The notes under the pieces are model-generated. The model saw nothing but the letters and a program-made list of their open reading frames with translations. It had not been told where the DNA came from and made no database searches. 64,000 bases of DNA from the NCBI RefSeq assembly GCF_013620825.1, contig NZ_NJIC01000019.1, positions 1-64,000 on the forward strand. Direction: 5' to 3'. A program made the position numbers and the translations under genes. Shown in pieces: positions 1,100 to 17,684 of the stretch (positions are counted from its first letter, which is position 1; each line of letters opens with the position of its first letter). The stretch is from Rhodanobacter sp. PCA2 (GTDB lineage Bacteria; Pseudomonadota; Gammaproteobacteria; Xanthomonadales; Rhodanobacteraceae).

Positions 1100-1113
1100 C
1101 TGACGTGGGTCAA
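1100..1113. promoter_or_regulatory. FNR/Dnr-type box upstream of fabA
   Basis: CTGACGTGGGTCAA fits the FNR/Anr/Dnr core TTGA-N6-TCAA at seven of eight positions. Its centre lies about 63 bases before the fabA ATG, nearly the same distance as the boxes before nrdD, ubiU, norZ and azurin. Binding is inferred from sequence only. Confidence 0.6.
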
Positions 1114-1169
1114 GTAAGCTTTTGCCCGCGTCCCGCACACTGCCTGACCCTCCACTCGACAAGAGCTTC

Positions 1170-1685
1170 ATGACCAGGCCCAACTCCTTCGATTACCAGG
1201 CACTGCTGGCCTGCGGCCGCGGCGAACTTTTCGGCGACGGCAATGCGCGCCTGCCGGCGCCGCCGATGCTGATGTTCGACCGCATCACGAAGATCGCCGA
1301 TACCGGCGGCGCCCACGGCAAGGGCGAGATCCACGCCGAATTGGACATCCATCCGCGGCTGTGGTTTTTCGACTGCCATTTCGAGGGCGACCCGGTGATG
1401 CCCGGCTGCCTGGGGCTGGACGCGATGTGGCAGCTCTCCGGCTTCTTCCTGCCGTGGCTGGGCGAGCCGGGCCGCGGCCGCGCGCTGGGCGTGGGCCAGG
1501 TGAAGTTCACCGGGCAGGTGCTGCCGAGCGCGAAGCTGGTGCGCTACGAGATCGACATCCGCCGCGTGATGCGCGGCCGGCTCTCGATGGTGATCGCCGA
1601 CGGCAAGACCTTCGTCGACGACCGCCTGATCTACACGGCCAGCGACATGCGCGTGGGCCTGTTCCAGTCCACCGAGGGCTTCTGA
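1170..1685 (+). CDS. fabA: 3-hydroxydecanoyl-ACP dehydratase/isomerase
   Basis: FabA dehydrates 3-hydroxydecanoyl-ACP and isomerises trans-2- to cis-3-decenoyl-ACP, the branch point to unsaturated fatty acids without oxygen. The protein is 171 residues, the normal family size. His70 ([10 protein letters not shown]) and Asp84 (LGLDAMWQL) fall exactly on the catalytic positions of E. coli FabA. The ATG at 1170 was chosen over an upstream in-frame ATG at 1122 because it gives the family N-terminus and a normal length. One base separates it from fabB, so the two are co-transcribed. An FNR/Dnr-like box lies 57 bases upstream of the start, which suggests induction when oxygen is scarce. Confidence 0.96.
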
Positions 1686-1686
1686 C

Positions 1687-2913
1687 ATGTCGACGGCTCC
1701 CGAGATGCGCCGCGTGGTGGTCACCGGCATGGGCATCGTGTCCTGCCTGGGCGACATGGCGGATACGGTTTCGCGCGCATTGCAGGAACTGAAGAGCGGC
1801 ATCCGCGCGATCCCCGATTACGCCGCGCGCGGCCTGCGCAGCCAGGTGGCGGGCGAGCCGCAGGTGGACCTGGAGGCGTCGATCGACCGCAAGCTGCGCC
1901 GCTTCATGGGCGACGCGGCCGCCTACGCCTACCTCTCGATGCGTTCGGCGATCGCCGATGCGGGGCTGGACCACGAGACCGTGAGCCATCCGCGCACCGG
2001 CGTGGTGGCCGGTTCCGGCGGCGGTTCGGCGCAATGGCAGATCGAGACCGCCGACCTGCTGCGCAGCAAGGGCGTGCGCAAGGTGGGACCGTTCATGGTG
2101 CCGCGCACGATGTGCTCCACGGTGTCGGCCACGCTGGCCACCGCGTTCGGCATCCTGGGCCTGAGCTATTCCATCGCCGCGGCCTGCGCGACCTCCGCGC
2201 ACTGCATAGGCGCGGCGGCCGACCTGATCCGCCACGGCGCGCAGGACGTGGTGTTCGCCGGCGGCGGCGAGGAGGCGCACTGGGGCATGACCGCGCAGTT
2301 CGACGCGATGGGCGCGCTCTCCTGTGCCTGGAACGACACGCCGCATGCCGCCTCGCGCCCCTACGACGCCGCGCGCGACGGCTTCGTGATCGCCGGCGGC
2401 GGCGGCATGCTGGTGCTGGAGGACTACGAGCACGCGAAGGCGCGCGGCGCGCGCATCCACGCGGAGCTGGTGGGCTACGGCGTCACCTCCGACGGCGCCG
2501 ACATGGTGGCGCCGTCCGGCGAAGGCGCGGTGCGCTGCATGCGGATGGCGCTGGCGAACGCCGGGCGCCCGATCGACTACCTCAACACCCACGGCACCGC
2601 CACGCCGCTGGGCGACATCGTGGAACTGGCGGCGGTGCGCGAGGTGTTCGGCGACGCGATGCCGCCGCTGTCCTCGACCAAGGCGCTCACCGGCCACTCG
2701 CTGGGCGCGGCCAGCGTGCACGAGGCGATCTACAGCCTGCTGATGATGCAGGGCGGCTTCATGGCCGGCTCGGCGAACATCGACGCGCTGGACCCGCGCG
2801 CCGAAGGCTTCCCGATCCTGCGCGAGAGCCGCGAGGCGCAGCTCGCCACCGTGATGTCCAACAGCTTCGGCTTCGGCGGCACCAACGCCAGCCTGGTGTT
2901 CGCCCGGGTGTAA
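1687..2913 (+). CDS. fabB: beta-ketoacyl-ACP synthase I
   Basis: FabB elongates the cis-3-decenoyl-ACP made by FabA and so commits carbon to unsaturated fatty acids. It has 408 residues, as in E. coli. The nucleophile is Cys167 in AAACATSAH; the two histidines of the Cys-His-His triad lie in [11 protein letters not shown] and TGHSLGAAS. The C-terminal FGFGGTNAS glycine loop is present. The start codon follows the fabA stop by one base, indicating translational coupling. FabB is preferred over FabF because of the CATSAHCIG context and the direct partnership with fabA. Confidence 0.96.
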
Positions 2914-2926
2914 CCGCCCCGGTCGC

Positions 2927-2951
2927 CCGGCCGGCGGTCTGCGCCGGCCGG
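2927..2951. other. GC-rich stem-loop after fabB
   Basis: A 9-bp stem (CCGGCCGGC / GCCGGCCGG) with a 7-base loop begins 13 bases after the fabB stop. There is no U-tract, so it may stabilise the 3' end or act only weakly as a terminator. Confidence 0.4.
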
Positions 2952-2973
2952 CATTCCCCATACCTTTCCCATG

Positions 2974-3010
2974 CCACCAGGATGCGCCGGTAGACGGCGC
3001 GTCCTGGTGG
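2974..3010. terminator. long stem-loop between fabB and nrdD
   Basis: CCACCAGGATGCGCCG pairs with CGGCGCGTCCTGGTGG through 16 pairs (one G-U) around a 5-base loop. It is the strongest hairpin in the fabB-nrdD gap and lies before the nrdD control region. No U-run follows, so it is either a factor-dependent terminator or a dispersed palindromic element. Confidence 0.45.
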
Positions 3011-3063
3011 CTGTTGCGCGTCCGTCGCGCCGACGGCGGCTGCGTTCCCCATCTGTTCCGGAA

Positions 3064-3077
3064 CTGACGCAGGTCAA
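3064..3077. promoter_or_regulatory. FNR/Dnr-type box upstream of nrdD
   Basis: CTGACGCAGGTCAA matches TTGA-N6-TCAA at seven of eight core positions, with its centre about 65 bases before the nrdD ATG. FNR/Anr-type control of anaerobic ribonucleotide reductase is well known in gammaproteobacteria, which makes this site credible. Confidence 0.65.
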
Positions 3078-3135
3078 GCCGCCGTCTCGGGCTTGCCACC
3101 AGCATGACCACTACATCTTGTGTCTCGGAGTGGAC

Positions 3136-4893
3136 ATGAACACCAATTGTGGTAATGCCTTCGATGCTTCCGGCAGCCTCGGCCGGCATGAGCAGGTGCT
3201 GGTCGACGTGGTCGGCACCATCGACGAGTACCTGAGCCGCGCCGACTGGCGGGTCAACGCGAACGCCAACCAGGGCTATTCGCTGGGCGGCCTGATCCTC
3301 AACACCTCGGGCAAGGTCACCGCGAACTACTGGCTGTCGCGCATCTACCCGCCGGAGATCGGCCACGCCCACCGCAATGCCGACCTGCACATCCACGACC
3401 TGGACATGCTGTCGGGCTACTGCGCGGGCTGGTCGCTGCGCACGCTGCTGCGTGAGGGGCTGAACGGCGTGCCCGGCAAGGTCGAGGCCGGCCCGCCCCG
3501 GCACCTGTCGTCGGCGGTGGGGCAGGTGGTGAACTTCCTCGGCACGATGCAGAACGAATGGGCCGGCGCGCAGGCGTTCTCCTCGTTCGACACCTACATG
3601 GCGCCGTACGTGCGCAAGGACCGCCTGGACTACGCGGCCGTGCTGCAGTCCATGCAGGAGCTGATCTACAACCTCAACGTGCCGTCGCGCTGGGGCACGC
3701 AGACGCCGTTCACCAACCTCACGTTCGACTGGACCTGCCCGGCGGACCTGCGCGAACAGGTGCCGGTGATCGACGGCGAGGAAATGCCGTTCGCCTACGG
3801 CGAGCTGCAGGCCGAGATGGACATGATCAACCGCGCCTACATCGAGGTGATGACGCGCGGCGACGCGAAAGGGCGGGTGTTCACCTTCCCCATCCCTACC
3901 TACAACATCACCGCGGATTTCCCGTGGGAATCGGAGAACGCCGAACGGCTGTTCGCGATGACCGCGAAGTACGGCCTGCCGTACTTCCAGAACTTCATCA
4001 ACTCCGAGCTGGACCCCGGCATGATCCGCTCGATGTGCTGCCGCCTGCAGCTGGACCTGCGCGAGCTGCTGAAGCGCGGCAACGGCCTGTTCGGCAGCGC
4101 CGAGCAGACCGGCAGCCTGGGCGTGGTGACGGTGAACTGCGCGCGCCTCGGCTACCTGCACGCCGGCGACGAAGCCGCGCTGCTGGCGCGCCTGGACGAG
4201 CTGCTGGAGCTGGGCAAGCGCAGCCTGGAGATCAAGCGCGGCGTGGTGCAGCGGCTGATCGACGAGGGACTCTACCCGTACACCCGGCGCTACCTTGGCA
4301 CGCTGCGCAACCATTTCTCCACGCTGGGGGTGAACGGCATCAACGAGATGATCCGCAACTTCAGCGGCGGCGCGCTGGACATCGCCAGCGACGAGGGCCA
4401 CGCGCTCGCGCTGCGCCTGCTGGACCACGTGCGCGGGAAACTGGCCGACTTCCAGGAGGAGACCGGCCACCTCTACAACCTCGAAGCCACGCCGGCCGAA
4501 GGTACCACCTACCGCTTCGCGAAGGAGGACCGCAAGCGCTGGCCGCAGATCCTGCAGGCGGGCAGCGCGGCGCAGCCGTACTACACCAACTCCTCGCAGC
4601 TGCCGGTGGGCTTCACCGACGATCCGTTCGAGGCGCTGGAGCGGCAGGAGGCGCTGCAGTCGCGCTACACCGGCGGCACCGTGCTGCACCTGTACATGAG
4701 CGAGCGGCTGTCCGGCAGCCATGCCTGCCGCGAACTGGTGCGCCGCGCGCTGGGCCGCTTCCGGTTGCCCTACGTCACCGTCACGCCGACGTTCTCGATC
4801 TGCCCCACGCACGGCTACCTGGCCGGCGAGCACGAATTCTGCCCGCGCTGCGACGAGGAACGGCTGGAACGCAAGCGCCGGCAGGCTGCCTGA
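3136..4893 (+). CDS. nrdD: anaerobic (class III) ribonucleotide reductase, catalytic part
   Basis: NrdD reduces ribonucleoside triphosphates to deoxyribonucleotides without oxygen, using a glycyl radical that relays to an active-site cysteine. The 585 residues contain the barrel motif RSMCCRL (Cys301/Cys302) and end with a zinc ribbon, CPTHG (Cys556, His559) and CPRC (Cys569, Cys572). They stop before the radical-glycine segment, which is encoded by the next gene. No N-terminal ATP-cone is visible, unlike the longer E. coli enzyme. The ATG at 3136 follows GGAG with 5-base spacing; the open frame upstream shows no NrdD-like sequence. An FNR/Dnr-like box lies upstream and nrdG follows in the same operon. 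Confidence 0.93.
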   Translation: MNTNCGNAFDASGSLGRHEQVLVDVVGTIDEYLSRADWRVNANANQGYSLGGLILNTSGKVTANYWLSRIYPPEIGHAHRNADLHIHDLDMLSGYCAGWSLRTLLREGLNGVPGKVEAGPPRHLSSAVGQVVNFLGTMQNEWAGAQAFSSFDTYMAPYVRKDRLDYAAVLQSMQELIYNLNVPSRWGTQTPFTNLTFDWTCPADLREQVPVIDGEEMPFAYGELQAEMDMINRAYIEVMTRGDAKGRVFTFPIPTYNITADFPWESENAERLFAMTAKYGLPYFQNFINSELDPGMIRSMCCRLQLDLRELLKRGNGLFGSAEQTGSLGVVTVNCARLGYLHAGDEAALLARLDELLELGKRSLEIKRGVVQRLIDEGLYPYTRRYLGTLRNHFSTLGVNGINEMIRNFSGGALDIASDEGHALALRLLDHVRGKLADFQEETGHLYNLEATPAEGTTYRFAKEDRKRWPQILQAGSAAQPYYTNSSQLPVGFTDDPFEALERQEALQSRYTGGTVLHLYMSERLSGSHACRELVRRALGRFRLPYVTVTPTFSICPTHGYLAGEHEFCPRCDEERLERKRRQAA

Positions 4894-4911
4894 GGCGGCA
4901 GTTCCGCCTTT
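4892..4911 (+). other. small hairpin between nrdD and its radical-domain gene
   Basis: AGGCGG-CAGTT-CCGCCT forms a 6-bp stem with a 5-base loop and a short T-run, spanning the nrdD stop region. It might tune expression of the downstream radical-domain gene; the stem is short and support is weak. Confidence 0.3.
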
Positions 4912-4939
4912 CCACCCACCATCCCCAAGGAGCATTCCC

Positions 4940-5125
4940 ATGAAGACGAACCGACCGACCATCGAACCCGCGCTGCGCGACGACGAGCGCCAGCGCTGCG
5001 AAGTCTGGACCCGCGTGATGGGCTACCACCGCCCGGTGGCGAGCTTCAACATCGGCAAGCAGGGCGAGCACAACGAGCGGCGCTTCTTCCAGGAGCAGGC
5101 GGCGGGGCTGGACCGCGCCGCATGA
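4940..5125 (+). CDS. stand-alone glycyl-radical domain of class III ribonucleotide reductase
   Basis: This 61-residue protein carries the segment that normally ends NrdD: CEVWTRVMGYHRPV followed by FNIGKQGEHNERRFF. Gly28 in RVMGY is the likely radical glycine that NrdG activates. It is separated from nrdD by 46 bases, lies in a different frame and has its own ribosome site (CCAAGGAG, 7 bases before ATG), so it reads as a separate translation unit and not a simple frameshift. Its stop overlaps the nrdG start (ATGA). The two NrdD pieces must associate for activity if the enzyme works; that is inference. Confidence 0.85.
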   Translation: MKTNRPTIEPALRDDERQRCEVWTRVMGYHRPVASFNIGKQGEHNERRFFQEQAAGLDRAA

Positions 5126-5799
5126 TACGCGTGGGCGGGATGACGCCGCTGACCACCATCGACTTTCCCGGCCGATTGGCGGCGGTGCTGTTCCTGCAGG
5201 GGTGCCCGTGGCGCTGCGGGTATTGCCACAACCCTCATCTGCTGCCCGCGCGGGCCGGCACCGGCGTCGCCTGGACGTCGGTGCTGGCCTTCCTCGAACG
5301 CCGTCGCGGCCTGCTGGACGGCGTGGTGTTCTCCGGCGGCGAACCCACGCTGCAACCCGGCCTGGGCGCCGCCGTGGCGGCGGTGCGCGGGCTGGGCTAC
5401 CGCGCCGCCCTGCATACCGGCGGCATGTATCCGGAACGCCTGCTGCCGTTGCTGCCCGCGCTGGACTGGGTGGGCCTGGACATCAAGGCGCCGTGGCCGC
5501 TGTACGACGGCGTGACCCGGCGGCGCGACAGCGCGCGCAAGGTGGGCCGCAGCCTGCGCGCCGTGGTGGAAGGCGGCGTGGCCCACGAATGCCGCACCAC
5601 CTGGCATCCCGGCCTGTTTCCCGAAGCCGCGCTGCACGAGCTCGCCGGGCAGTTGCGCGAGGCCGGCGTGCGGCACTGGGCGCTGCAGGAATGCCGCGTC
5701 GACGGTCGCCGCCATCCGGACTGGCGTACGCCCGACCTCGTGCGGCTGGGCGCCGGCTTCGATTCGTTCGTGTTCCGCGGCGGCGACGCCGTCCAGTAG
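5122..5799 (+). CDS. nrdG: anaerobic ribonucleotide reductase-activating protein (radical SAM)
   Basis: NrdG uses S-adenosylmethionine and a [4Fe-4S] cluster to abstract hydrogen from the NrdD glycine. The radical-SAM cysteines are Cys28, Cys32 and Cys35 (CPWRCGYC), followed by HNPHL and the GGEPTLQ SAM-binding segment. At 225 residues it matches the Pseudomonas-type activases, longer than E. coli NrdG. Start and stop overlap the radical-domain gene by 4 bases, so the activase and its direct substrate domain are translationally coupled. Confidence 0.92.
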   Translation: MIRVGGMTPLTTIDFPGRLAAVLFLQGCPWRCGYCHNPHLLPARAGTGVAWTSVLAFLERRRGLLDGVVFSGGEPTLQPGLGAAVAAVRGLGYRAALHTGGMYPERLLPLLPALDWVGLDIKAPWPLYDGVTRRRDSARKVGRSLRAVVEGGVAHECRTTWHPGLFPEAALHELAGQLREAGVRHWALQECRVDGRRHPDWRTPDLVRLGAGFDSFVFRGGDAVQ

Positions 5800-5833
5800 G
5801 CGGCTGCGCGCGTCGCGGCGATGGTCGAAATCT

Positions 5834-6712
5834 TCAGCCGGCGTCGGCCGCACGCATCCCCGGCTCGCCATGCCAGTAGCCGCTGCGCGCGGCGATGCGC
5901 GGCGGCGGCTGCAGCGAGCGGCGGGCGCGGTCGTAATGCGCCACGGTCTCGGCCATGCCTTCGGCCCGCGGGTACAGGCGCAGCACGTCCACGCCCAGTT
6001 CGCGCAGCTGCGGCAGTTCCGGGCCCAGGTCGACGATCTCCTCGCCCAGGATCTGGATGCCGTTGATGCGCAGGAACGGCTTGCCCTCGCGGGTGGCCAG
6101 CGGCAGGCCGTCCGGGAAGTCGATGCAGCGGAAGCCGCACTGGTCCTTGGGCACGTCCAGCGCCCGCGCGGTGAAGCAGCGCGCCGAATACGACAGCGGC
6201 AGGCGGCCGTAGGCGATCACTTCCAGCTCAGGCATCGCCTGGCCCGCGGCCCGCATCGCGTCGCGCAGTTCGCGGATCAGCGTGCGGCCCTGTTCCACGC
6301 CTGGCACCCAGCGCACCAGGCCGTCGTCCATCAGCAGCTTCAACGCCACGTGGTTGTATACGTTGAGCGAGGGCCCGGCCACGAACGGCACGCCGCGCTC
6401 GCGGCACAGCTGCGCGGCGGAGAGGTCGTTCGCCTCGATCCAGCCGCCGCCTTCGGCGATCAGGCGCTTGAGCACGCCCAGCTCGGACTCGGCCTCGATC
6501 AGCGCCAGCGAGGACAGCACCACCTGCTTGCCGCTTTCGACCAGCTCCGCGGCCAGTCCGATCCAGTTGCTGGTGGAGAGTTCGCGGCGCTTGCTGCACA
6601 CCGTTTCGCCGAGGTAGACGATGTCCACCGGCCAGTCCGCCGCCGCCCGGTAGAAGGCGAGCGTGTGTTCGCGCGGCCAGAAATATTGCAGCGGTCCCAG
6701 GCTGAGTTTCAT
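5834..6712 (-). CDS. ubiV: O2-independent ubiquinone biosynthesis protein UbiV (U32 family)
   Basis: UbiV with UbiU forms the [4Fe-4S] complex that hydroxylates the ubiquinone ring without oxygen, allowing ubiquinone synthesis during anaerobic respiration. The protein has 292 residues. Its cysteines at 39, 179, 192 and 196 (last two in CGFRC) match, within one residue, the cluster ligands of E. coli UbiV. It is transcribed after ubiU with a 13-base gap. A peptidase role is unlikely despite the U32 family label. UbiT, the usual third partner, is not in the window. Confidence 0.93.
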   Translation of the reverse strand: MKLSLGPLQYFWPREHTLAFYRAAADWPVDIVYLGETVCSKRRELSTSNWIGLAAELVESGKQVVLSSLALIEAESELGVLKRLIAEGGGWIEANDLSAAQLCRERGVPFVAGPSLNVYNHVALKLLMDDGLVRWVPGVEQGRTLIRELRDAMRAAGQAMPELEVIAYGRLPLSYSARCFTARALDVPKDQCGFRCIDFPDGLPLATREGKPFLRINGIQILGEEIVDLGPELPQLRELGVDVLRLYPRAEGMAETVAHYDRARRSLQPPPRIAARSGYWHGEPGMRAADAG

Positions 6713-6725
6713 GGTGCGGTCCAGG

Positions 6726-7724
6726 TCAGTGCCAATGGCGGTGGTAGGGGCCCAGCGTGGTCTGGCGGCCCTCGGCGTGTTTGGTCAGCGCGGCCTGCCA
6801 CGCGGGCCGCGCCGACCACTCGGCCGGCGCGGCCGCGTAGCGGTCCAGCGCATCGCGCCAGGTGCGGGTGACCGAGGCCACGTAGGCCACGCCGCGCTGG
6901 CGGCCTTCGATCTTCAGCGCCGCCACGCCGGCGCCGGCCAGCCGCGGCAGCAGCTCCAGCGTGTTGAGGCTGGTGGGTTCCTCCAGCGCGTGGAAGGTTT
7001 CGCCGCGCACTTCGAAGCGCCCCTTGCACACGGTGGGATAGCCGGCGGGTTCGGCCGGTTCAAAGCGGTCGATCAGCACCTCGTTGAGGCGCACGCTGCG
7101 GCGGCCGTCGCCGTGTTCGTCCCAGCGCACGAACTTCGCCGGCGAGCACACGCCGTGGCGGTTCGGCGAGGCGCCGGTGACGTAGCTGGAAAGCTGGCAG
7201 CGCCCCTCCACCATGATGCACAGGCTGCCGAACGCGAACACCTCCAGCGGCACCGGGCTGGTTTCGCACAGGCGTTCCACCTGCTGCACCGACAGCACGC
7301 GCGGCAGCACCGCGCGGCTGATGCCGAAGCGCTCGCGCATGTAGCGCAGCGCGGGCGCGGTGGTGGCCGAGCCCTGCACGCTGAGATGCCGCGCCAGCGC
7401 GGGATAGGTGCGCGCGGCGTAGTCCAGCACCGCCATCTCGGCCGCGATGATCGCGTCGCAGCCCAGCGCCGCCGCCTTGTCCACCGCGGCATACCACTGC
7501 GGCAGGCGCGCGCTGTCCGGATAGGTGTTCAGCGCGAGGTAGACCTGGCGGCCGCGCGCATGCGCATAGGCGATGCCTTGCGCCAGTTCCGCGTCGGAAA
7601 AGTTCAGGCCGGGGAAGGCCCGCGCGTTCGTCTCGTCGCGCAAGCCGGCGTAGACCGCATCGGCGCCGGCGTCGATCGCCGCCTGCAGGGCCGGCAGGTT
7701 GCCGGCGGGACAGACTAGTTGCAT
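6726..7724 (-). CDS. ubiU: O2-independent ubiquinone biosynthesis protein UbiU (U32 family)
   Basis: UbiU is the partner of UbiV in oxygen-independent ring hydroxylation of ubiquinone precursors. It has 332 residues; Cys169, Cys176, Cys193 and Cys233 align with the cluster ligands known from E. coli UbiU (the last shifted by one). The start at 7724 (MQLVCPAGN) was chosen because U32 proteins begin with this strand; an earlier in-frame ATG at 7757 adds an unconserved extension. A strong FNR/Dnr-like box centred about 66 bases upstream fits induction without oxygen. Confidence 0.93.
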   Translation of the reverse strand: MQLVCPAGNLPALQAAIDAGADAVYAGLRDETNARAFPGLNFSDAELAQGIAYAHARGRQVYLALNTYPDSARLPQWYAAVDKAAALGCDAIIAAEMAVLDYAARTYPALARHLSVQGSATTAPALRYMRERFGISRAVLPRVLSVQQVERLCETSPVPLEVFAFGSLCIMVEGRCQLSSYVTGASPNRHGVCSPAKFVRWDEHGDGRRSVRLNEVLIDRFEPAEPAGYPTVCKGRFEVRGETFHALEEPTSLNTLELLPRLAGAGVAALKIEGRQRGVAYVASVTRTWRDALDRYAAAPAEWSARPAWQAALTKHAEGRQTTLGPYHRHWH

Positions 7725-7783
7725 GCGTGGCACTCCGCGCGGAAAAGGTGCGGGCATCGTGGCTGCGACATGCCACCACGGTG

Positions 7784-7797
7784 TTGACGTGGGTCAG
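7784..7797. promoter_or_regulatory. FNR/Dnr-type box in the ubiU-dnrO divergent promoter region
   Basis: TTGACGTGGGTCAG matches TTGA-N6-TCAA at seven of eight positions. Its centre is about 66 bases from the ubiU start on the minus strand and about 88 from the DnrO-like start on the plus strand. Confidence 0.65.
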
Positions 7798-7798
7798 T

Positions 7799-7812
7799 TT
7801 GTCGTGGATCAA
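7799..7812. promoter_or_regulatory. second, weaker FNR/Dnr-type half-site box
   Basis: TTGTCGTGGATCAA keeps a perfect right half (TCAA) and three of four bases on the left. It lies one base after the first box and is centred about 73 bases before the DnrO-like gene, so the two divergent units may each use one site. Confidence 0.45.
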
Positions 7813-7878
7813 GGGTCCCCGATGGCGGCCGACTAGCATCGGTCCGGCAGCGGCATCCGCCGCAGACCGGAGTTTCCG

Positions 7879-8352
7879 ATGACGACGAGACCTTCCCTGG
7901 CATGGCTGGCCTTCGCGGCGTTCGCGCTGCCCGCCGGCGCGGCGCTGGCCCAGCACGACCATGCGGCGCACGCGCACGTCGCCGCGCCGGTGCCGCCGCC
8001 GGCCAGGCCCTGGGCGGCCGACGCCACGCTGCGCGCCGACATGGGGCAGATCCACCTGGTGCTGGAACAGCTGCGCCATTACGAGATGGGCCACATGGAC
8101 GCGACGCTGGCGCTGGACCGCGTGGCCGTGATCGAGGAGTCGGCCGCCGACATCTTCGCCAAGTGCAAGCTGGAACCGCAGCAGGACGCCGTGCTGCACG
8201 GCATGCTGGTGCCGCTGCTCGCTGCGGTGCAGAAGTTCAAGGCCGATCCCGCGGACATGCGCCAGCTCGAGGCGATGCGCGAGGCGGTGGCGGGCTATCC
8301 CCGCTATTTCGAGGCGCCGGGCTGGGCGGCGGGCGCCGCGCACGCGCACTGA
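7879..8352 (+). CDS. DnrO-like histidine-rich periplasmic protein
   Basis: The 157-residue protein has a signal peptide (cleavage likely after GAALA near residue 24) followed by a histidine-rich stretch, QHDHAAHAHV, and an alpha-helical body with LRHYEMGHMD and ADIFAKCKLEPQQDAVLHG. It resembles proteins annotated DnrO in xanthomonads, linked by name to denitrification control loci, but I know of no proven function. The His-rich mature N-terminus suggests metal binding. It diverges from ubiU across a gap with one clear and one partial FNR/Dnr box, which suggests expression at low oxygen or with NO. Confidence 0.55.
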   Translation: MTTRPSLAWLAFAAFALPAGAALAQHDHAAHAHVAAPVPPPARPWAADATLRADMGQIHLVLEQLRHYEMGHMDATLALDRVAVIEESAADIFAKCKLEPQQDAVLHGMLVPLLAAVQKFKADPADMRQLEAMREAVAGYPRYFEAPGWAAGAAHAH

Positions 8353-8364
8353 TCCCCGGCGCCG

Positions 8365-8378
8365 CTGATCTGGATCAA
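8365..8378. promoter_or_regulatory. FNR/Dnr-type box before the four-cysteine gene
   Basis: CTGATCTGGATCAA matches TTGAT-N4-ATCAA with one mismatch, the best full-length match in the window. It is centred about 34 bases before the ATG at 8405 and about 60 before the ATG at 8432. Confidence 0.65.
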
Positions 8379-8404
8379 GCACGTCCGCATGGAGGCGGCG
8401 CACG

Positions 8405-8737
8405 ATGCCGCCATCGCAACGGGCAACGCAGATGACTGACTACATCCAGGTCTGGCAATGCATAGGCTGCGGCCGGATAGAGGCGCCGCAGACCTGCATC
8501 GGCGTGTGCCGCGACCGCAAGGCATTCATGGTGGGCAAGGACGACCACGAGCGCGCGCTGGCCGCCAACGCCGCGCTGCAGCAGCAGCTGGAGCGCACGC
8601 GCGCGATGCTGCTGCGCTTCGGCCGCGCCGAACCCAAGCCGGGACAATGGGAAAACTCGTGGCGCGCGTTGCAGGCGCAGGTACAGGAGGCGTTGGCGAT
8701 GCTGGCGTCGGCCGATGGCGTGAAGCCGCCGGCCTGA
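8405..8737 (+). CDS. small four-cysteine protein of unknown function
   Basis: I cannot name this 110-residue protein. Near the N-terminus it has WQCIGCGRIEAPQTCIGVC, a C-x2-C-x8-C-x3-C pattern able to hold zinc or an iron-sulfur cluster. The rest (about 48-100) is predicted helix rich in Ala, Leu and Gln, likely a short coiled coil. The ATG at 8405 has GGAGG 9 bases upstream; an ATG at 8432 (MTDYIQVW) lacks a ribosome site but would put the box at the class II distance. It follows the DnrO-like gene by 52 bases, which contain a near-perfect FNR/Dnr box, tying it to the anaerobic set. Confidence 0.7.
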   Translation: MPPSQRATQMTDYIQVWQCIGCGRIEAPQTCIGVCRDRKAFMVGKDDHERALAANAALQQQLERTRAMLLRFGRAEPKPGQWENSWRALQAQVQEALAMLASADGVKPPA

Positions 8738-8759
8738 GCCGCGCCGCGGCCGGCTCAGG
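8733..8759. terminator. stem-loop spanning two convergent stop codons
   Basis: CCTGAGCCG pairs with CGGCTCAGG across a 9-base loop. The left arm holds the stop of the four-cysteine gene and the right arm the stop of the dehydrogenase gene. It is a plausible two-way transcript end, though no U-tract is present. Confidence 0.45.
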
Positions 8760-9513
8760 ATGCCGGCGGCGGAATCGCCAGCGCATCGTCGCTGGCCAGC
8801 AGCCGGCGGTGGACCGCGTCCAGGTGTTCCAGCAGTTCCGCGCGCGCCGCTTCGGCGTAGGGATTCTCGCGCTGGATCGCCGCGAACAGGTGGCCGGCGT
8901 CGCCGCGCACCGCGGCGAGCATGTTCGCGAGGCCCAGGAACGACGGCGGCGCCATCGACAGGTCGTCGCCCACGCCCATCTCCACCAGCGCGCGGGCGAT
9001 GAAGAACGCCAGCGCGTGGGTCTTCGCCATTGCGCGGTCGTGCGTGGCGGCGTCCTGCGGGATCACCGCGCAGCCCAGCGATTCGAACAGCGCCTGCGTG
9101 CGCTCCGCCGCCTGCGGGTGGCGCGCGCTGGCGCACAGCACCACACGCAGCGGCTCGCCGCGGGCGAGGCTGAGTGGACCGAACAGCGGGTGGGTGCCGG
9201 CGTGCGGCACTGCGTCGCCGAGATACTCATCCAGCAGCGAGCAGGGATGTTCCTTCACGCTGCCCACGTCGATCACGGTGTGGCGCGCGTCCAGCAGCGG
9301 GCGCAGCTCGCGCAGCGCCGCCTCCATCCGCGGCACCGGCATCGCCAGCACCACCCATTCGGCGCCGGCCAGCGCGGCGGCCGGCGTGGGGCAGGCCAGC
9401 GCGGCGGGCACCTCGGCGTGCGGGTCGTGGATGCGCACGGTGTGGCCGGCGCTCTGCAGCAGGTCGGCGAAGGCGCTGCCGAAGCGGCCATGGCCGAACA
9501 GGGCGAAGATCAT
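8755..9513 (-). CDS. prephenate dehydrogenase-like protein
   Basis: The 252-residue protein has an N-terminal Rossmann NAD(P) loop (FGHGRFGSAFADLL, residues about 4-17), a second strand ending VVLAMPVPRM, and the GTHPLFGP segment with the histidine typical of prephenate dehydrogenases. It would convert prephenate to 4-hydroxyphenylpyruvate for tyrosine. There is no chorismate mutase fusion and no ACT domain, so feedback by tyrosine through ACT is not expected. Its ATG overlaps the ubiD stop by one base (TGATG), so translation is coupled to ubiD. A related prephenate/arogenate-type oxidoreductase cannot be excluded. Confidence 0.8.
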   Translation of the reverse strand: MIFALFGHGRFGSAFADLLQSAGHTVRIHDPHAEVPAALACPTPAAALAGAEWVVLAMPVPRMEAALRELRPLLDARHTVIDVGSVKEHPCSLLDEYLGDAVPHAGTHPLFGPLSLARGEPLRVVLCASARHPQAAERTQALFESLGCAVIPQDAATHDRAMAKTHALAFFIARALVEMGVGDDLSMAPPSFLGLANMLAAVRGDAGHLFAAIQRENPYAEAARAELLEHLDAVHRRLLASDDALAIPPPAS

Positions 9514-11033
9514 CAGGGACTCCAGCGATCGGGGGACGCGCCGCCCCGGCCGGGGGCGACATCCGACGATTCTCGCAGCGTGCGCCACAAAGTCTCCACC
9601 CTTGCCTCCACTTCGGCGTCCGGGGCGATCGGCATGCCCCAGTTGCGGCTGGTCTCGCCGGGCCACTTGTTGGTGGCGTCGATGCCCAGCTTGGAGCCCA
9701 GCCCCGCCACCGGGCTGGCGAAGTCCAGGTAGTCGATCGGCGTGTTCTCCACCAGCATGGTGTCGCGCGCGGGATCGACGCGGGTGGCCAGCGCCCAGAT
9801 CACCTGCTTCCAGTCGCGCGCGTCGATGTCGCCGTCCACCACGATCACGAACTTGGTGTAGGTGAACTGGCGCAGGTACGACCACACGCCCATCATCACG
9901 CGCCGCGCGTGGCCGGCGTACTGCTTGTGGATCGCCACCACGGCGATGCGGTAGGAGCAGGCTTCCGGCGGCAGGTGGAAGTCGACGATCTCGGGGAACA
10001 CCTTCTGCAGGATGGGCACGAACACCTCGTTCAGCGCCATCGCCAGCACCGAGGGTTCGTCGTGCGGCGCCCGGCCCATGTAGCTGCCCTGGTAGATCGC
10101 GCCGCGGCGCAGCTGCATGCGCTCGATGGTGAGCACCGGGAAATGGTCCTGCGCGTTGTAGTAGCCGGTGTGGTCGCCGAACGGGCCTTCCAGCGCGGTG
10201 TCGCCGGGATGGATGAAGCCTTCCAGCAGGATCTCCGCGCTGGCGGGCGCATCCAGTCCGGTGAGGTTGCTGCGCCACAGCCGCGTGCGCTCGCCGCGCA
10301 GCAGGCCCGCGAATTCGTATTCGGACAATGTGTCCGGCACCGGCGCCACCGCGGCGAGCAGCGTGGCGGGATCGGTGCCTATCGCGACCAGCACGGGAAA
10401 GGGTTCGTGCGGGTGGTCGCTGCGCCAGTCCGCGTAGTCCAGCGCGCCGCCGCGATGCGGCAGCCAGCGCATGATCACGCGGTTCGGCGCCAGTACCTGC
10501 TGGCGGTAGATCGCCACGTTCTGCCGCCGCTTGCGGCTGCCGCGGGTGACCACCAGGCCCAGCGTGACCAGCCGCCCGGCGTCGCCCGGCCAGCAGTGCT
10601 GGATGGGCAGGCGGCCGAGGTCGACGTCGTCGCCCTCCACGATCTCGTCCTGGAACGCGGCGTCGTCGACATGGCGCGGCGCCACGTGGGCGAGCTGGGC
10701 CAGCTCCGGCCAGGTGGCCAGCGCCTGCCGCAGGTTCGCCGGCCAGCGCGGCTCCTTGATCGCGGCCAGCAACTGGCCCAGTTCGCGCAGGCTCGCCAGC
10801 GGCCGCCCGGCCAGCGCCAGCTCGATGCGCCGGCGGTGGCCGAACAGGTTGCCGAGGAAGGCGTGGTTCGCGCCTGTCGGCCGTTCCACCAGCACGGCGG
10901 GGCCTTCCTCGCGCAGCGCGCGATGGCACAACGCCGTGGTTTCGAGATGGGGATCGACCGGCGTCCGCACGCGCAGCAGCTGTTGCTGGCGCTCCAGCCG
11001 GTCGAGGAAGGAACGCAGGTCGTGGAAGCTCAT
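9513..11033 (-). CDS. ubiD: 4-hydroxy-3-polyprenylbenzoate decarboxylase
   Basis: UbiD decarboxylates the prenylated 4-hydroxybenzoate ring in ubiquinone synthesis with a prenylated FMN made by UbiX, which is not in this window. The 506 residues match the family length. Family segments include [48 protein letters not shown] and the late DATNKWPGE. An FNR/Dnr-like box lies 35 bases upstream of the start, between this gene and the preceding operon. With ubiUV nearby, it suggests that quinone synthesis is adjusted to low oxygen. The downstream dehydrogenase gene is overlapped. Confidence 0.93.
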
Positions 11034-11067
11034 CCCGCAAGGCTCGCCGCCCGGCGCCGCGCGCGCA

Positions 11068-11081
11068 TTGATCCCGGTCAG
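11068..11081. promoter_or_regulatory. FNR/Dnr-type box upstream of ubiD
   Basis: TTGATCCCGGTCAG matches the TTGA-N6-TCAA core at seven of eight positions. It is centred about 41 bases from the ubiD start on the minus strand, closer than the other boxes, so it could activate from an unusual position or repress. Confidence 0.5.
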
Positions 11082-11097
11082 GCCGGAGCGCAGGACC

Positions 11098-12207: not shown

Positions 12208-12222
12208 CGGCGGTTTCCGGGC

Positions 12223-14166: not shown

Positions 14167-14567
14167 GCCAGCCACCCGTGCAGCCAGCCCAGCGGGTGGT
14201 GCATGCGCGCCACGCCCAGCATGTAGACGTAGGTCGCCAGCGCGGCCACGTAGAAGATCCGGCGCGCGCGCGGCGTGCGCCCGCGCTTCAGCGCCAGCGT
14301 GCCCATGGCGACGTAGGCCACCAGCAGGGTCAGCTTGGTGGTCAGCCAGCCGTTCGCGTACAGCCCGTGCGGCAGGATGGACAGCAGCATCAGCGCCGCG
14401 GTGAGCAGCGTGGTGTCGATGGAATAGCTCAGGTAGCGCAGCGGCGCCCATTGCGCGGCGCCGGCGTGGCCGGCCTGCACCAGCAGGCCGCGCAGCGCGA
14501 ACAGCAGGCCGCTGGCCAGCACGCAGGCGATGTGCACCCATTTGATCTGCGGATAGAACTCGAGCAT
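14163..14567 (-). CDS. SirB2-family small integral membrane protein
   Basis: The 134-residue protein is almost entirely hydrophobic, with four probable membrane helices (about 8-28, 44-64, 76-92, 107-122), and starts with the FYPQIKWVHIACV segment typical of SirB2 proteins. SirB2 was named for an effect on invasion gene expression in Salmonella; its molecular role is unknown. It heads the operon with the decarboxylase and Cds1-like genes. The ATG touches a heptanucleotide repeat and has no recognisable ribosome site, so expression may be weak or repeat-dependent. Confidence 0.8.
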   Translation of the reverse strand: MLEFYPQIKWVHIACVLASGLLFALRGLLVQAGHAGAAQWAPLRYLSYSIDTTLLTAALMLLSILPHGLYANGWLTTKLTLLVAYVAMGTLALKRGRTPRARRIFYVAALATYVYMLGVARMHHPLGWLHGWLA

Positions 14568-14628
14568 CGGGATTCGGGATTCGGGATTCGGGATTCGGGA
14601 TTCGGGATTCGGGATTCGGGATTCGGGA
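14568..14628. repeat. heptanucleotide tandem repeat (CGGGATT), eight copies
   Basis: Eight perfect tandem copies of CGGGATT (14568-14623) plus a partial ninth lie directly against the sirB2 start codon, between sirB2 and the norZ hairpin. Such arrays change copy number by slippage. Here this would alter the distance between the sirB2 start and its promoter rather than a reading frame. Confidence 0.9.
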
Positions 14629-14631
14629 AAG

Positions 14632-14663
14632 CCTCGGGGCGCGCCTGGCGGCGCGCCCCGGGG
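14632..14663 (-). terminator. strong stem-loop after norZ
   Basis: CCTCGGGGCGCGCC pairs with GGCGCGCCCCGGGG (14 pairs, one G-U) around a TGGC loop, four bases beyond the norZ stop. On the minus strand it is followed only by CTTT, so it is probably a moderately efficient terminator of norZ. Confidence 0.6.
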
Positions 14664-14667
14664 TGGT

Positions 14668-16944
14668 TCAGCCGTTGTCGCGGATCGCCTGCGGCTGCAC
14701 CGCGAGGCTGCGCCTGGGGAACAGCCACAGCGCCGCCACGAAGATGGCCATCAGCAACGCGCCGACCGCGAACAAGGTGTCGCCGGGCACGCGCATCCAG
14801 ATCAGCAGGTGGATCAGCGGACGGTCCATGAACTCGGCCGAGCGGGCGAACCAGTAGCCGTGCTCCAGCACCGCCTTCAGCTGCAGGATGCCCAGCGGCA
14901 GCAGGGTGCAGGCGGCCATCAGCGACAGGCCGATGTTGAGGCTCCAGAACGAACCCTTCAGCCAGCCCTCGCGCCACTCCGCCTCCGGCTTGATGCCGCG
15001 CAGGCAGAACAGCATCAGGCCCAGGCCCAGCATGCCGTACACGCCCATCAGCGCGGTGTGGCCGTGGGTGGCGGTGAGGTTGAGGCCCTGCATGAAGTAC
15101 AGCGCGATCGGCGTGTTCACCAGGAAGCCGAACAGGCCGGCGCCCACCAGGTTCCAGAAGCTCACCGCCACGAAGAACAGGATCGGCCAGCGGTAGCGCG
15201 CCATCCACGGCGCGGCGTGCTGCTTCTTCCAGGTGTCCCAGGCTTCCAGACCGATCAGCGCCAGCGGCACCACTTCCAGCGCCGAGAAGCTGGCGCCCAG
15301 CGCGATCACCGCCGTGGTGGTGCCGCTGAAGTACAGGTGGTGCAGCGTGCCAAGCACGCCGCCGGCCATGAACACGATGGTGGCGAACAGCACGTTGGTG
15401 GTGGCGCTGCCCACGCGCAGCAGGCCCAGGCGCACGAACAGGTAGCTGATCAGCGCGGTGGCGAACACCTCGAAGAAGCCTTCCACCCACAGGTGCACCA
15501 CCCACCAGCGCCAGTACTCGACCATCGCGATGTGGGTGTGCTCGCCCCACATCAGGCCGGCGCCGTAGAGCAGGCCGATCGCCACGGTGGACAGGAACAG
15601 CAGGCCCACGATCGACGCGCCTTCCTTGCCGCGGCGCATCGCCGGCCACAGCGCGCGGCCGACCAGGAACAGCCACAGCATCAGTCCGATGAACAGGAAG
15701 ATCTGCCAGAAGCGGCCGAGGTCGGTGTATTCCCAGCCCTGGTGGCCGAACCAGAAGTTGTACTGCAGGCCCATCTTGTCCATCACCGCGAACCACTGGC
15801 CGGCGAACGAGCCGACCACGATGATCAGCAGGCAGACCCACAGGAAGTTCACCCCCAGCCGCTGGAACTTCGGCTCGTAGCCGGAGATCAGCGGTGCGAT
15901 GTACAGGCCGGAGGCCAGCCACGCGGTGGCGATCCACAGCACTGCAAGCTCGGTGTGCCAGGTGCGGGTGAGGCTGTAGGGCAGGTAGTTGGCCAGCGCG
16001 AAGCCGTAGGCCTGCTGGCCTTCCACCTGGTAATGCGCGGTGGTGGCGCCCAGCAGGATCTGCACCAGGAACAGGGCCAGCACGGTCCAGAAGTACTTGC
16101 CGGTCGCCTTCATCGACGGCGTCGCCTTCAGCTCGGTGAGCGGATCGCGCGCCGGCACCACCGGCAGCGGCTCGTTGTGCACCTGACGCGCGTGGTGCAG
16201 GGCGAGCAGGCCGATGCCGAGGATCAGGAACAGGATGCTGAACACCGACCACAGGAAGCTGGCGGGGGTGGGCGTGTTGCCGGCCACCGGGTCGTACGGC
16301 CAGTTCTGCGTGTAGCTGATGCTGCCGCCCGGACGATTCGCGGCGGCGGCCCAGGCGGTCCACCAGAAGAACGCGTTGACCGAGCGGCGATGCTCCATCT
16401 CGGCGACGGTGTTGTCGCGCATCGCGTAGGTTTCGCGCAGCTTCGCGGTGGCCGGGTCGTTGCTGAACAGGCTCATGTAGTGGGCTCCCACCACTGCCAT
16501 CGCCTGCGCGCGCAGCGGCGACACCGTGATGGTGCCGGTGGCCGGGTCCCAGGTGTTGGTGCGCAGTTCCTCGCGCACGCGCGCCTGCAGCGCGGCCTGC
16601 TGCGGCACGTCCAGCGCGGCGTAGGACGCGGCGCCCTGGTCGCGCGCCAGCAGCTCCAGCATCGCCTCGCTCTCGCGGTGCAGCCAGTCGGCGCTCCAGT
16701 CCGGCGCCAGCAGCGCGCCGTGGCCCCAGATCGAGCCCAGCTGCTGTCCGCCTATGCTCTGCCACACCTGCTTGCCCAGCTCGATGTCGTCGCCGGTGAA
16801 CAGGGTCTCCTGGCTGCTGGTGACCACCGCCTTGGGCAGCGGCGGCGCCTGCTGGTGGACCAGCTTGCCCACCCAGAGCAGTACGGCGAAGGAGGCGACC
16901 AGCAGTGCCGCCAGCCCCAGCCACAATTTACGGGTACTACTCAT
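14668..16944 (-). CDS. norZ: quinol-dependent nitric oxide reductase (qNOR)
   Basis: qNOR reduces two NO to N2O at the inner membrane using quinol. The single 758-residue chain fuses a NorC-like N-terminal part (one helix near 8-30, then a periplasmic domain without a CxxCH haem c site) to a NorB-like core of about 12 helices. Histidine ligands lie in RTWHTELAVLW, WGEHTHIAMVEYW, GTLHHLYFSGT and THGHTALMGVYG. The ATG at 16944 has GGGAG 8 bases upstream. A palindromic FNR/Dnr box is centred 63 bases upstream, so NO and low oxygen probably induce it. Azurin lies upstream in the same direction, behind its own terminator. Confidence 0.95.
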   Translation of the reverse strand: MSSTRKLWLGLAALLVASFAVLLWVGKLVHQQAPPLPKAVVTSSQETLFTGDDIELGKQVWQSIGGQQLGSIWGHGALLAPDWSADWLHRESEAMLELLARDQGAASYAALDVPQQAALQARVREELRTNTWDPATGTITVSPLRAQAMAVVGAHYMSLFSNDPATAKLRETYAMRDNTVAEMEHRRSVNAFFWWTAWAAAANRPGGSISYTQNWPYDPVAGNTPTPASFLWSVFSILFLILGIGLLALHHARQVHNEPLPVVPARDPLTELKATPSMKATGKYFWTVLALFLVQILLGATTAHYQVEGQQAYGFALANYLPYSLTRTWHTELAVLWIATAWLASGLYIAPLISGYEPKFQRLGVNFLWVCLLIIVVGSFAGQWFAVMDKMGLQYNFWFGHQGWEYTDLGRFWQIFLFIGLMLWLFLVGRALWPAMRRGKEGASIVGLLFLSTVAIGLLYGAGLMWGEHTHIAMVEYWRWWVVHLWVEGFFEVFATALISYLFVRLGLLRVGSATTNVLFATIVFMAGGVLGTLHHLYFSGTTTAVIALGASFSALEVVPLALIGLEAWDTWKKQHAAPWMARYRWPILFFVAVSFWNLVGAGLFGFLVNTPIALYFMQGLNLTATHGHTALMGVYGMLGLGLMLFCLRGIKPEAEWREGWLKGSFWSLNIGLSLMAACTLLPLGILQLKAVLEHGYWFARSAEFMDRPLIHLLIWMRVPGDTLFAVGALLMAIFVAALWLFPRRSLAVQPQAIRDNG

Positions 16945-17000
16945 CGCGCATCTCCCTATCAGAGGTGCACGCATGCTGGCGGCGGCACCGGGGCGCGCCC

Positions 17001-17014
17001 CTGATCTATATCAG
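17001..17014. promoter_or_regulatory. FNR/Dnr-type box upstream of norZ
   Basis: CTGATCTATATCAG is nearly a perfect palindrome and matches six of eight core positions of TTGA-N6-TCAA, with all inner bases (TGAT...ATCA) intact. It is centred 63 bases from the norZ start. Dnr-type NO sensors control nor genes in related denitrifiers. Confidence 0.7.
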
Positions 17015-17112
17015 CCCGCGGCACGGTGGCGCGGTGCGAATTGTCGCAGGCGCCTTGTGGCGCACGGGCCATGCATGGGGCGAGGCGAATCGCGGCGCGA
17101 CGACGGCCCGGA

Positions 17113-17146
17113 CAAAAAACGCACCCGGCCGTTGCAGCCGGGTGCG
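17113..17146 (-). terminator. Rho-independent terminator of azurin
   Basis: A 10-bp stem (CGCACCCGGC / GCCGGGTGCG) with a 7-base loop is followed on the minus strand by six T residues. It begins 17 bases past the azurin stop and is the clearest intrinsic terminator in the window. Confidence 0.9.
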
Positions 17147-17162
17147 TCGCCTTGCGGAAAAC

Positions 17163-17609
17163 TCAGTTCGCCAGGCTCAGCGTGCCCTTCATCAGCGCGG
17201 CATGGCCTGGGAAGGTGCAGAAGAACGCGTACTGCTCGCCGGCCTTGAGCTTGGCCACGTTGACGGTCGCGGTGTCGGATTCGCCGCCGCCGATCAGCTT
17301 GGTGTGCGCGAGGATGCGCGCGTCGCCGGGCTTCTCGTAGCTGCTGCCGGCGCCGGCCTTCATGCCGTCGGCGATCACGCCGGCCTCGTCGGTGGCGTGC
17401 GACAGCACCCAGTTGTGGCCCATCGAGGCCACCGGCAGCTTGCCGGTGTGCTTCAGCGTGACCTTGAAGCTCTTGCAGGCCTTGGGCACGGTGATGGTCT
17501 TGGTGTTGAACTGCATCGCGTCGTTGGCCTCGACGGTGGTGCTGCACTCGGCGGCCATCAGCGGGCTGCAGGCGAAGCCGAGCAGGGCGAGGACAATCAG
17601 TTTGCGCAT
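17163..17609 (-). CDS. azu: azurin (blue copper electron carrier)
   Basis: Azurin is a periplasmic cupredoxin that shuttles electrons in respiration and denitrification. The 148-residue precursor has a signal peptide cut near residue 19. In mature numbering the copper ligands fall exactly on His46 (MGHNW), Cys112, His117 and Met121 (CTFPGHAALM). The disulfide cysteines of the family are also present. The ATG at 17609 follows AAGGAG with an 8-base spacer. A partial FNR/Dnr box is centred 68 bases upstream. It has its own terminator, so it is a single-gene unit next to norZ. Confidence 0.96.
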   Translation of the reverse strand: MRKLIVLALLGFACSPLMAAECSTTVEANDAMQFNTKTITVPKACKSFKVTLKHTGKLPVASMGHNWVLSHATDEAGVIADGMKAGAGSSYEKPGDARILAHTKLIGGGESDTATVNVAKLKAGEQYAFFCTFPGHAALMKGTLSLAN

Positions 17610-17670
17610 GGGGATCGCTCCTTGGGAGAAATGGGCGGGGCGATTCTGGTGACGGCGCGGAAGGAGGGCA

Positions 17671-17684
17671 CTGATCTGCGTCAT
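17671..17684. promoter_or_regulatory. partial FNR/Dnr-type box upstream of azurin
   Basis: CTGATCTGCGTCAT keeps six of eight core bases of TTGA-N6-TCAA and is centred 68 bases from the azurin start, the same distance as the stronger boxes. It also lies 149 bases before the divergent TonB receptor gene. Confidence 0.5.

Follow-up and report, generated by a model that had tools for sequence, protein, structure and literature searches.

In a 64,000-nucleotide stretch of the Rhodanobacter sp. PCA2 genome (positions 1 to 64,000 of contig NZ_NJIC01000019.1; hereafter the window), palindromic boxes precede fabA, nrdD, ubiU, ubiD, norZ, an open reading frame at 8432, and an azurin-like gene. These boxes are very probably binding sites of FNR, an oxygen-sensitive iron-sulfur regulator, from which an oxygen-free gene set would be activated in the class II manner when oxygen falls. 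The sites, their positions, the register of the -10 hexamers behind them, their conservation, and the presence of two FNR-type proteins are all read from the sequence.

Boxes and predicted promoters in the window

The pattern YTGA-N6-TCAR occurs six times in the window, at 1100, 3064, 7784, 8365, 11068, and 17001, and a site at 17671 is one base off. A preliminary description of this DNA had placed six intergenic sites here and called the seventh partial; all six are exact and all are intergenic, though 92% of the window is coding according to a codon-usage gene finder. Dinucleotide shuffles of the window, which has a GC content of 69%, give a mean of 1.27 sites (n = 100; maximum 5), and none of the 100 reaches 6. 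All six also agree with the FNR half-sites TTGA-N6-TCAA, allowing one base of wobble. The gene finder trims some starts, and those used here are 1170, 3136, 7724, 8432, 11033, 16944, and 17609. The genes concerned had been said to make sense without oxygen, and they do fit an anaerobic set:

1100..1113, + strand: predicted FNR box CTGACGTGGGTCAA of the fabA-fabB promoter; -10 CACACT at 1136-1141; centre 63.5 bases before the ATG; kept in relatives
1170..1685, + strand: fabA, the dehydratase/isomerase for making unsaturated fatty acids without oxygen (NCBIfam TIGR01749, 285.7 bits against a cut-off of 238)
1687..2913, + strand: fabB, beta-ketoacyl-ACP synthase I, directly 3' of fabA (NCBIfam NF005935, 645 bits, cut-off 630)
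3064..3077, + strand: predicted FNR box CTGACGCAGGTCAA of nrdD; -10 CAGCAT at 3100-3105; centre 65.5 bases before the ATG; a like arrangement in one relative (L082)
3136..4893, + strand: nrdD, anaerobic ribonucleotide reductase (NCBIfam NF006126 and TIGR02487, both above cut-off)
4940..5125, + strand: separate small gene between nrdD and nrdG whose product matches the C-terminal end of NrdD (Pfam NRDD, 30.2 bits, covering just the last 32 profile positions, 531-562 of 562)
5122..5799, + strand: nrdG, activating radical-SAM (S-adenosylmethionine) enzyme (NCBIfam TIGR02495, 179.8 bits)
5834..6712, - strand: ubiV (NCBIfam NF047965, 341.7 bits, cut-off 275)
6726..7724, - strand: ubiU, oxygen-free ubiquinone biosynthesis (NCBIfam NF047963, 530 bits, cut-off 440)
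7784..7797, - strand: predicted FNR box CTGACCCACGTCAA (minus-strand letters) of ubiUV; -10 CACGAT at 7761-7756; centre 66.5 bases before the ubiU ATG; found in 64 of 70 deduplicated loci
7799..7812, no strand assigned: second site TTGTCGTGGATCAA beside the ubiU box, with one mismatch and no in-register -10 on either strand
8365..8378, + strand: predicted FNR box CTGATCTGGATCAA; -10 CACGAT at 8401-8406; centre 60.5 bases before the ATG at 8432
8432..8737, + strand: 101-residue conserved protein carrying C-X2-C-X8-C-X3-C and without a family match; 17 of the 80 loci fetched from relatives contain it
9513..11033, - strand: ubiD-type decarboxylase (NCBIfam TIGR00148, 476.5 bits, cut-off 245; UbiD equivalog NF008175, 711 bits, short of the 788 required)
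11068..11081, - strand: predicted FNR box CTGACCGGGATCAA (minus-strand letters) of ubiD; -10 GAGCCT at 11045-11040; centre 41.5 bases before the ATG
14668..16944, - strand: norZ, quinol-type nitric oxide reductase (Pfam PF22085, 239 bits; PF00115, 193 bits)
17001..17014, - strand: predicted FNR box CTGATATAGATCAG (minus-strand letters) of norZ; -10 CAGCAT at 16978-16973; centre 63.5 bases before the ATG at 16944; at 58-70 bases in 13 of 15 loci
17163..17609, - strand: azurin-like blue copper protein (Pfam PF00127, 78.8 bits)
17671..17684, - strand: predicted imperfect FNR box ATGACGCAGATCAG (minus-strand letters) of azurin; -10 CAGAAT at 17648-17643; centre 68.5 bases before the ATG

Class II activation by FNR from -41.5 calls for a -10 hexamer 22 bases after the box, and this is what we observe. 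Specifically, a hexamer of the form xAxxxT stands 22 bases past all six window boxes and past the imperfect azurin box, in each case on the same strand as the gene that the box precedes. This layout of box and hexamer is that of a predicted class II FNR promoter centred at -41.5. At fabA, nrdD, ubiU, norZ, and azurin the listed distances from box centre to ATG agree with the 63-68 bases reported earlier, and the activation from -41.5 with a short leader that was then suggested is supported by in-register hexamers in the window, the genome, and the relatives.

Genome-wide (3.91 Mb in 62 contigs), YTGA-N6-TCAR occurs 180 times and its reversed pattern 94 times. The stricter YTGAY-N4-RTCAR, which includes all six window sites, occurs 62 times (reversed 18), or about once per 64 kb. 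The surroundings of all 62 were read from the genome stretches around them and from two 20-kb pieces of a second contig (C21), and 27 proved intergenic and 35 lay in called coding DNA. Chance would put about 5 to 12 of them in intergenic DNA, an expectation based on the share of DNA left uncalled by the gene finder (8% of the window, 20% of the fetched stretches), so the equal density in coding DNA that the preliminary description had named as grounds for refutation is not what the genome holds. An in-register xAxxxT follows 13 of the 27 intergenic sites vs 0 of the 35 coding ones (Fisher, P = 2.4e-6), with a sharp peak of 13 intergenic sites at offset 0 and at most 4 at every other offset from -12 to +12. 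Searched for directly, the combination of box and -10 is found at 22 places in the genome vs 1 for the reversed pattern; 6 of the 22 are in the window, and 13 belong to the 62 stricter sites and were read in context.

The register also bears on start codons. For the open reading frame at 8432, an alternative ATG at 8405 was rejected because it falls inside the -10, and 8432 fits. At ubiD (window 11033-11081) the box centre is 41.5 bases from the ATG, which puts the predicted transcription start on the start codon. The same distance, again with the -10 in register, is seen at hemN outside the window (locus L087, 11568-11616), and the anaerobic messages of both genes may be leaderless.

Two further observations concern the surroundings of the boxes. 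The box at 7784 was considered as a promoter shared with the divergent open reading frame at 7879-8352 and rejected, as neither it nor the site at 7799 has a -10 in register in that direction; that frame encodes a histidine-containing, apparently secreted protein with no family match, and no promoter of its own was found for it. Next to norZ, between it and a SirB-family gene, the heptamer GGGATTC stands eight times in tandem (14569-14624).

Conservation in related loci and the case of fabAB

A scan with UbiU retrieves 80 related loci with flanks of up to 10 kb, or 81 with the window; most of the 80 bear the titles of Lysobacterales genera. Boxes at 58-70 bases were counted after near-identical upstream stretches had been removed (window included), leaving out loci whose match starts after residue 15 or that have fewer than 120, or fewer than 160, bases upstream. 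For norZ, 22 of the 81 loci have a match and 15 were used for the box count; for the open reading frame at 7879, 37 have a tblastn match (window included) and 5 were used.

At ubiU, 64 of 70 loci have a box whose centre lies 58-70 bases ahead of the start, as do 25 of 35 at fabA, 13 of 15 at norZ, 6 of 15 at the open reading frame at 8432, and 15 of 53 at ubiD. The internal operon genes taken as controls have none (fabB 0/20, ubiV 0/57). Eight other spacers give no match at 58-70 at fabA, ubiU, or norZ, and one at ubiD, while 63 other half-sites give mean matches there of 0.06 for fabA, 0.03 for ubiU, and 0 for norZ. Where the box centre lies at 56-72 (loci not deduplicated), the -10 is exactly in register at fabA in 24 of 27 cases, ubiU in 62 of 72, norZ in 13 of 13, the open reading frame at 8432 in 9 of 9, and ubiD in 10 of 15; in 10 ubiU and 5 ubiD cases xAxxxT is found one base further on. 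Apart from the window, nrdD occurs in a single fetched locus, L082, and there it is preceded by TTGATCCACGTCAA with CAGAAT in register behind it. Azurin was tried as a conserved member and rejected, since among 7 usable loci only one relative has a box, at 89.5, and none has one at 58-70. It is the weakest member of the set.

FabA and FabB make unsaturated fatty acids without oxygen. The Rhodanobacter genome also holds one fatty acid desaturase over cut-off, in an open frame with three histidine boxes. Among 97 sampled genomes of the family (FabA at E 1e-30 or better, UbiU at 1e-100 or better, desaturase family over cut-off), a desaturase-family match is present in all 97, FabA in 45, and UbiU in 25. 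FabA accompanies UbiU in 25 of 25 genomes vs 20 of 72 UbiU-less ones (Fisher, P = 3e-11, uncorrected for ancestry), and within the genus two of seven genomes have both genes and five have neither. Promoters of fabA could be read in 33 of the 45 fabA-bearing genomes: an exact box lies 61-67 bases before the start in 13 of 15 UbiU-bearing and 10 of 18 other genomes, and all 13 of the former boxes and 7 of the latter 10 have the -10 exactly in register. As a general gammaproteobacterial feature the fabA box was rejected, because a class sample has it at 58-70 in 0 of 60 and anywhere in 330 bases in 4 of 60 upstream stretches (from 134 genomes with a match, two of the 60 being of the same order and many starts being displaced by a few residues). 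Within an order sample, 7 of the 30 best matches, which include the Rhodanobacter genome itself, have it at 58-70. From these patterns, FabA here appears to stand in for the desaturase as an accessory driven by FNR.

The predicted regulator, and the probable regulon beyond the window

The Crp/Fnr helix-turn-helix family PF13545, the one family used for the regulator search, has six matches in the genome, three of which are Crp/Fnr proteins (L001, L002, and L003). The reading frames of L001 and L002 contain C-X2-C-X5-C near the N-terminus, a central cysteine, and the sequence ETVSR, which conforms to the E-x-x-S-R that we take to mark the FNR recognition helix. L001 aligns with solved FNR proteins over 10-231, and its cysteines match theirs. 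L003 is a CRP/Clp protein (NCBIfam CRP, 313 bits). None of the six PF13545 matches is a cysteine-free Dnr-type protein, and the earlier label of FNR/Dnr-type boxes therefore narrows to FNR: the first half of it stands, with two predicted FNR-type proteins present, and the second does not.

The frame of L001 can start at an ATG overlapping the stop codon of hemN. With hemN preceded by its box, centred 41.5 bases before the ATG, and by the -10 CACACT, the fnr gene behind it probably belongs to its own regulon. Directly 3' of the second fnr (L002; with L101, contig C11) are an FNR box, an in-register -10, and nnrS.

Outside the window, in-register promoters precede nirK (centre 60.5 bases before the ATG of the frame MKYALC), hemN-fnr, nnrS (60.5), ccoN (67.5), and genes for a DUF2249 protein (64.5) and an OmpW-family protein (72.5), and one further site has no called gene nearby. 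Contig C21 carries nirK and hemN-fnr together with another NorB-like protein. The preliminary description had drawn the regulon as a cluster from 1100 to 17684; this holds for the genes as a set and fails for its limits, as the predicted in-register regulon extends past 17.7 kb, to another contig and to scattered sites.

Both the window (1-1044) and contig C21 (L087:1-243) begin inside nadB. Among the 14 loci listed, fabA and the ubiT fusion gene described below lie within 10 kb of ubiU in 9, with nadA between them in 7 of these, and nirK is in the same locus in 4; across the 81 loci, nadA is found in 51, a fusion match in 65, and nirK in 28. Given the shared nadB ends and the synteny in relatives, the box clusters of the window and of C21 are probably a single island of about 30 kb.

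Contig C21 also carries a gene in which UbiT is fused to a chorismate mutase:

L087:1330-2169, contig C21: 279-residue fusion of an N-terminal AroQ-type chorismate mutase (CM_2, 44.7 bits, cut-off 27) and a C-terminal UbiT (NF047962, 130.7 bits, cut-off 46.9)

The gene lies in a run behind a box at C21:4080, which has no in-register -10. A motif search finds the N-terminal mutase motif in 54 of the 65 loci with a fusion match; among the other 11, a mutase part is recognizable by eye in L057, L058, and L076, there is none in the open frame of L053 and L055, and L050 is masked there. R12, R29, K40, R52, E53, and Q89 are invariant in 22 aligned fusions, and a profile alignment to the Escherichia coli chorismate mutase 1ecm (E 1e-12) matches them to Arg11, Arg28, Lys39, Arg51, Glu52, and Gln88, which we take to be the active site of that enzyme. 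The fused mutase, which lies outside the window, could provide UbiUV locally with prephenate, its proposed hydroxyl donor. No paper with both UbiT and chorismate mutase was found in the open literature, a body from which subscription papers are mostly absent.

An oxygen-free gene set probably under FNR

The fabAB, ubiUV, nrdDG, and hemN genes encode oxygen-free counterparts of oxygen-requiring steps. When oxygen drops, FNR would bind the boxes centred at -41.5, contact RNA polymerase as a class II activator, and turn on the gene behind each box. FabAB would then stand in for the desaturase (of the oxygen-requiring partners, the one looked for in the genome), UbiUV for the ubiquinone mono-oxygenases, NrdDG for the aerobic ribonucleotide reductase, and HemN for HemF, and nitric oxide and nitrite reduction would come on as well. 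With one fnr behind the hemN promoter, the switch would reinforce itself. Here we infer the binding, the oxygen response, the activation, and which FNR acts where.

A first alternative is that the sites are read by a nitric oxide sensor of the Dnr/NnrR type and not by an oxygen-sensing FNR. The DNA motif does not distinguish the two regulators, and norZ, nirK, and nnrS are classic nitric oxide-responsive genes; against this, the PF13545 matches comprise two proteins with FNR cysteines and a CRP/Clp protein, with no cysteine-free Dnr type, and fabA, nrdD, and ubiU are not nitric oxide-detoxifying genes, all of which makes such a sensor improbable. It is less probable still that the boxes belong to the CRP/Clp regulator. 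That protein is present, and the CRP consensus, TGTGA-N6-TCACA, has TGA-N6-TCA in common with FNR sites, but the outer base is C/T, the FNR letter, in all six window sites and most positioned sites of the relatives, none of those six has the GTGA-N6-TCAC half-sites, and the genes form an anaerobic set. Least credible of all is a coincidental cluster of chance palindromes or overlaps with generic -35 elements, which could draw on the genomic density of the loose pattern and on the 35 of 62 stricter sites in coding DNA, but is contradicted by box position and -10 register being kept in relatives while most surrounding bases drift, by control spacers, half-sites, and genes that are empty or nearly so, and by the contrast in register between intergenic and coding sites.

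Several observations count against FNR control as proposed here. Across the genome the loose pattern has a density of about 2.9 per 64 kb, which leaves the window just about twofold rich by raw density, and TTGA-N6-TCAA with one mismatch gives 10 sites vs 5.0 expected, a number that 6 of 100 shuffles reach, such that the enrichment is not clear. The in-register -10 is missing at 14 of the 27 stricter intergenic sites, and the exact box at 10 of the 33 fabA promoters of the family. At ubiD, just 15 of 53 genes have the box at 58-70, and in the window it is just 41.5 bases from the ATG; the azurin box is both imperfect and not conserved. The link between fabA and ubiU across genomes carries no correction for ancestry. 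Finally, L001 and L002 score 169.9 and 171.6 bits against NCBIfam Fnr, below its cut-off of 228, for stretches that both lack part of the N-terminus and, in L002, the N-terminal cysteines; it is still the best family for both.

The class of system is a known one. In Pseudomonas, the iron-sulfur protein Anr is the anaerobic regulator, with denitrification genes under it, and the heme-containing Dnr is added for nitric oxide; nrdD, nor, and nir are under FNR-type control there. Anaerobic iron-sulfur regulation that takes in denitrification genes is thus common to both, whereas no Dnr was found here. Sphingopyxis granuli differs from Rhodanobacter in being an alphaproteobacterium. Its strain TFA has two fnr genes, boxes mostly centred at -41.5, and targets that include ccoN, hemN, ubiT, and nrdZ (PMC7713065). 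The two fnr genes, the -41.5 boxes, and ccoN and hemN among the targets are as predicted here, whereas fabA and "fatty acid" are absent from the accessible part of that text (PMC7713065).

In E. coli, FNR activates ubiUV in anaerobiosis via a site that lies 36 nt ahead of the point where ubiUV transcription begins, so that ubiUV is under an FNR site there as predicted here; ubiT and ubiU are divergent neighbours in E. coli (PMC10470549). In Rhodanobacter, by contrast, ubiT lies on another contig as a fusion with chorismate mutase, and a further difference is that fabAB, nrdDG, norZ, nirK, and hemN-fnr share the same two-contig neighbourhood. A survey of Pseudomonadota predicts an FNR site ahead of ubiU in 1180 of 1566 cases and ahead of ubiV in none, in line with our 64 of 70 and 0 of 57, whereas the words fabA, mutase, fusion, and prephenate are absent from the portion of its text available (PMC11707229). 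As far as these sources extend, FNR control of ubiU is already reported, as are FNR sites before hemN, ccoN, and a ribonucleotide reductase gene; the lipid branch and the chorismate mutase-UbiT neighbour make the present system a variant.

The predicted FNR control of fabAB, and with it of oxygen-free unsaturated fatty acids, looks new. No earlier report of it is among the matches listed in the open literature, which mostly leaves out subscription papers, so that absence there is weak evidence. Two Pseudomonas studies reported fabA as down, not up, under anoxic growth, one in anaerobic biofilms that P. aeruginosa formed on artificial urine and the other in P. putida grown anoxically with an electrode (PMC3742457, PMC11389600).

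More tentatively, and with slightly more doubt than confidence, we suggest that in the Rhodanobacteraceae and their neighbours a syntenic island run by FNR swaps core biosyntheses to oxygen-free versions, with fabAB serving there as an accessory, FNR-driven replacement for a universal desaturase and not as housekeeping, and the chorismate mutase-UbiT fusion making prephenate for UbiUV on the spot. Respiration and fermentation are the familiar targets of FNR regulons; in this case, unsaturated lipids, ubiquinone, heme, and DNA precursors would also be included, as one package. The fusion offers a direct handle on the source of UbiUV's oxygen atom. The fabAB link, if true, would explain how a bacterium whose desaturase requires oxygen keeps its membrane fluid without it, and points to the relatives that may be capable of anaerobic growth.

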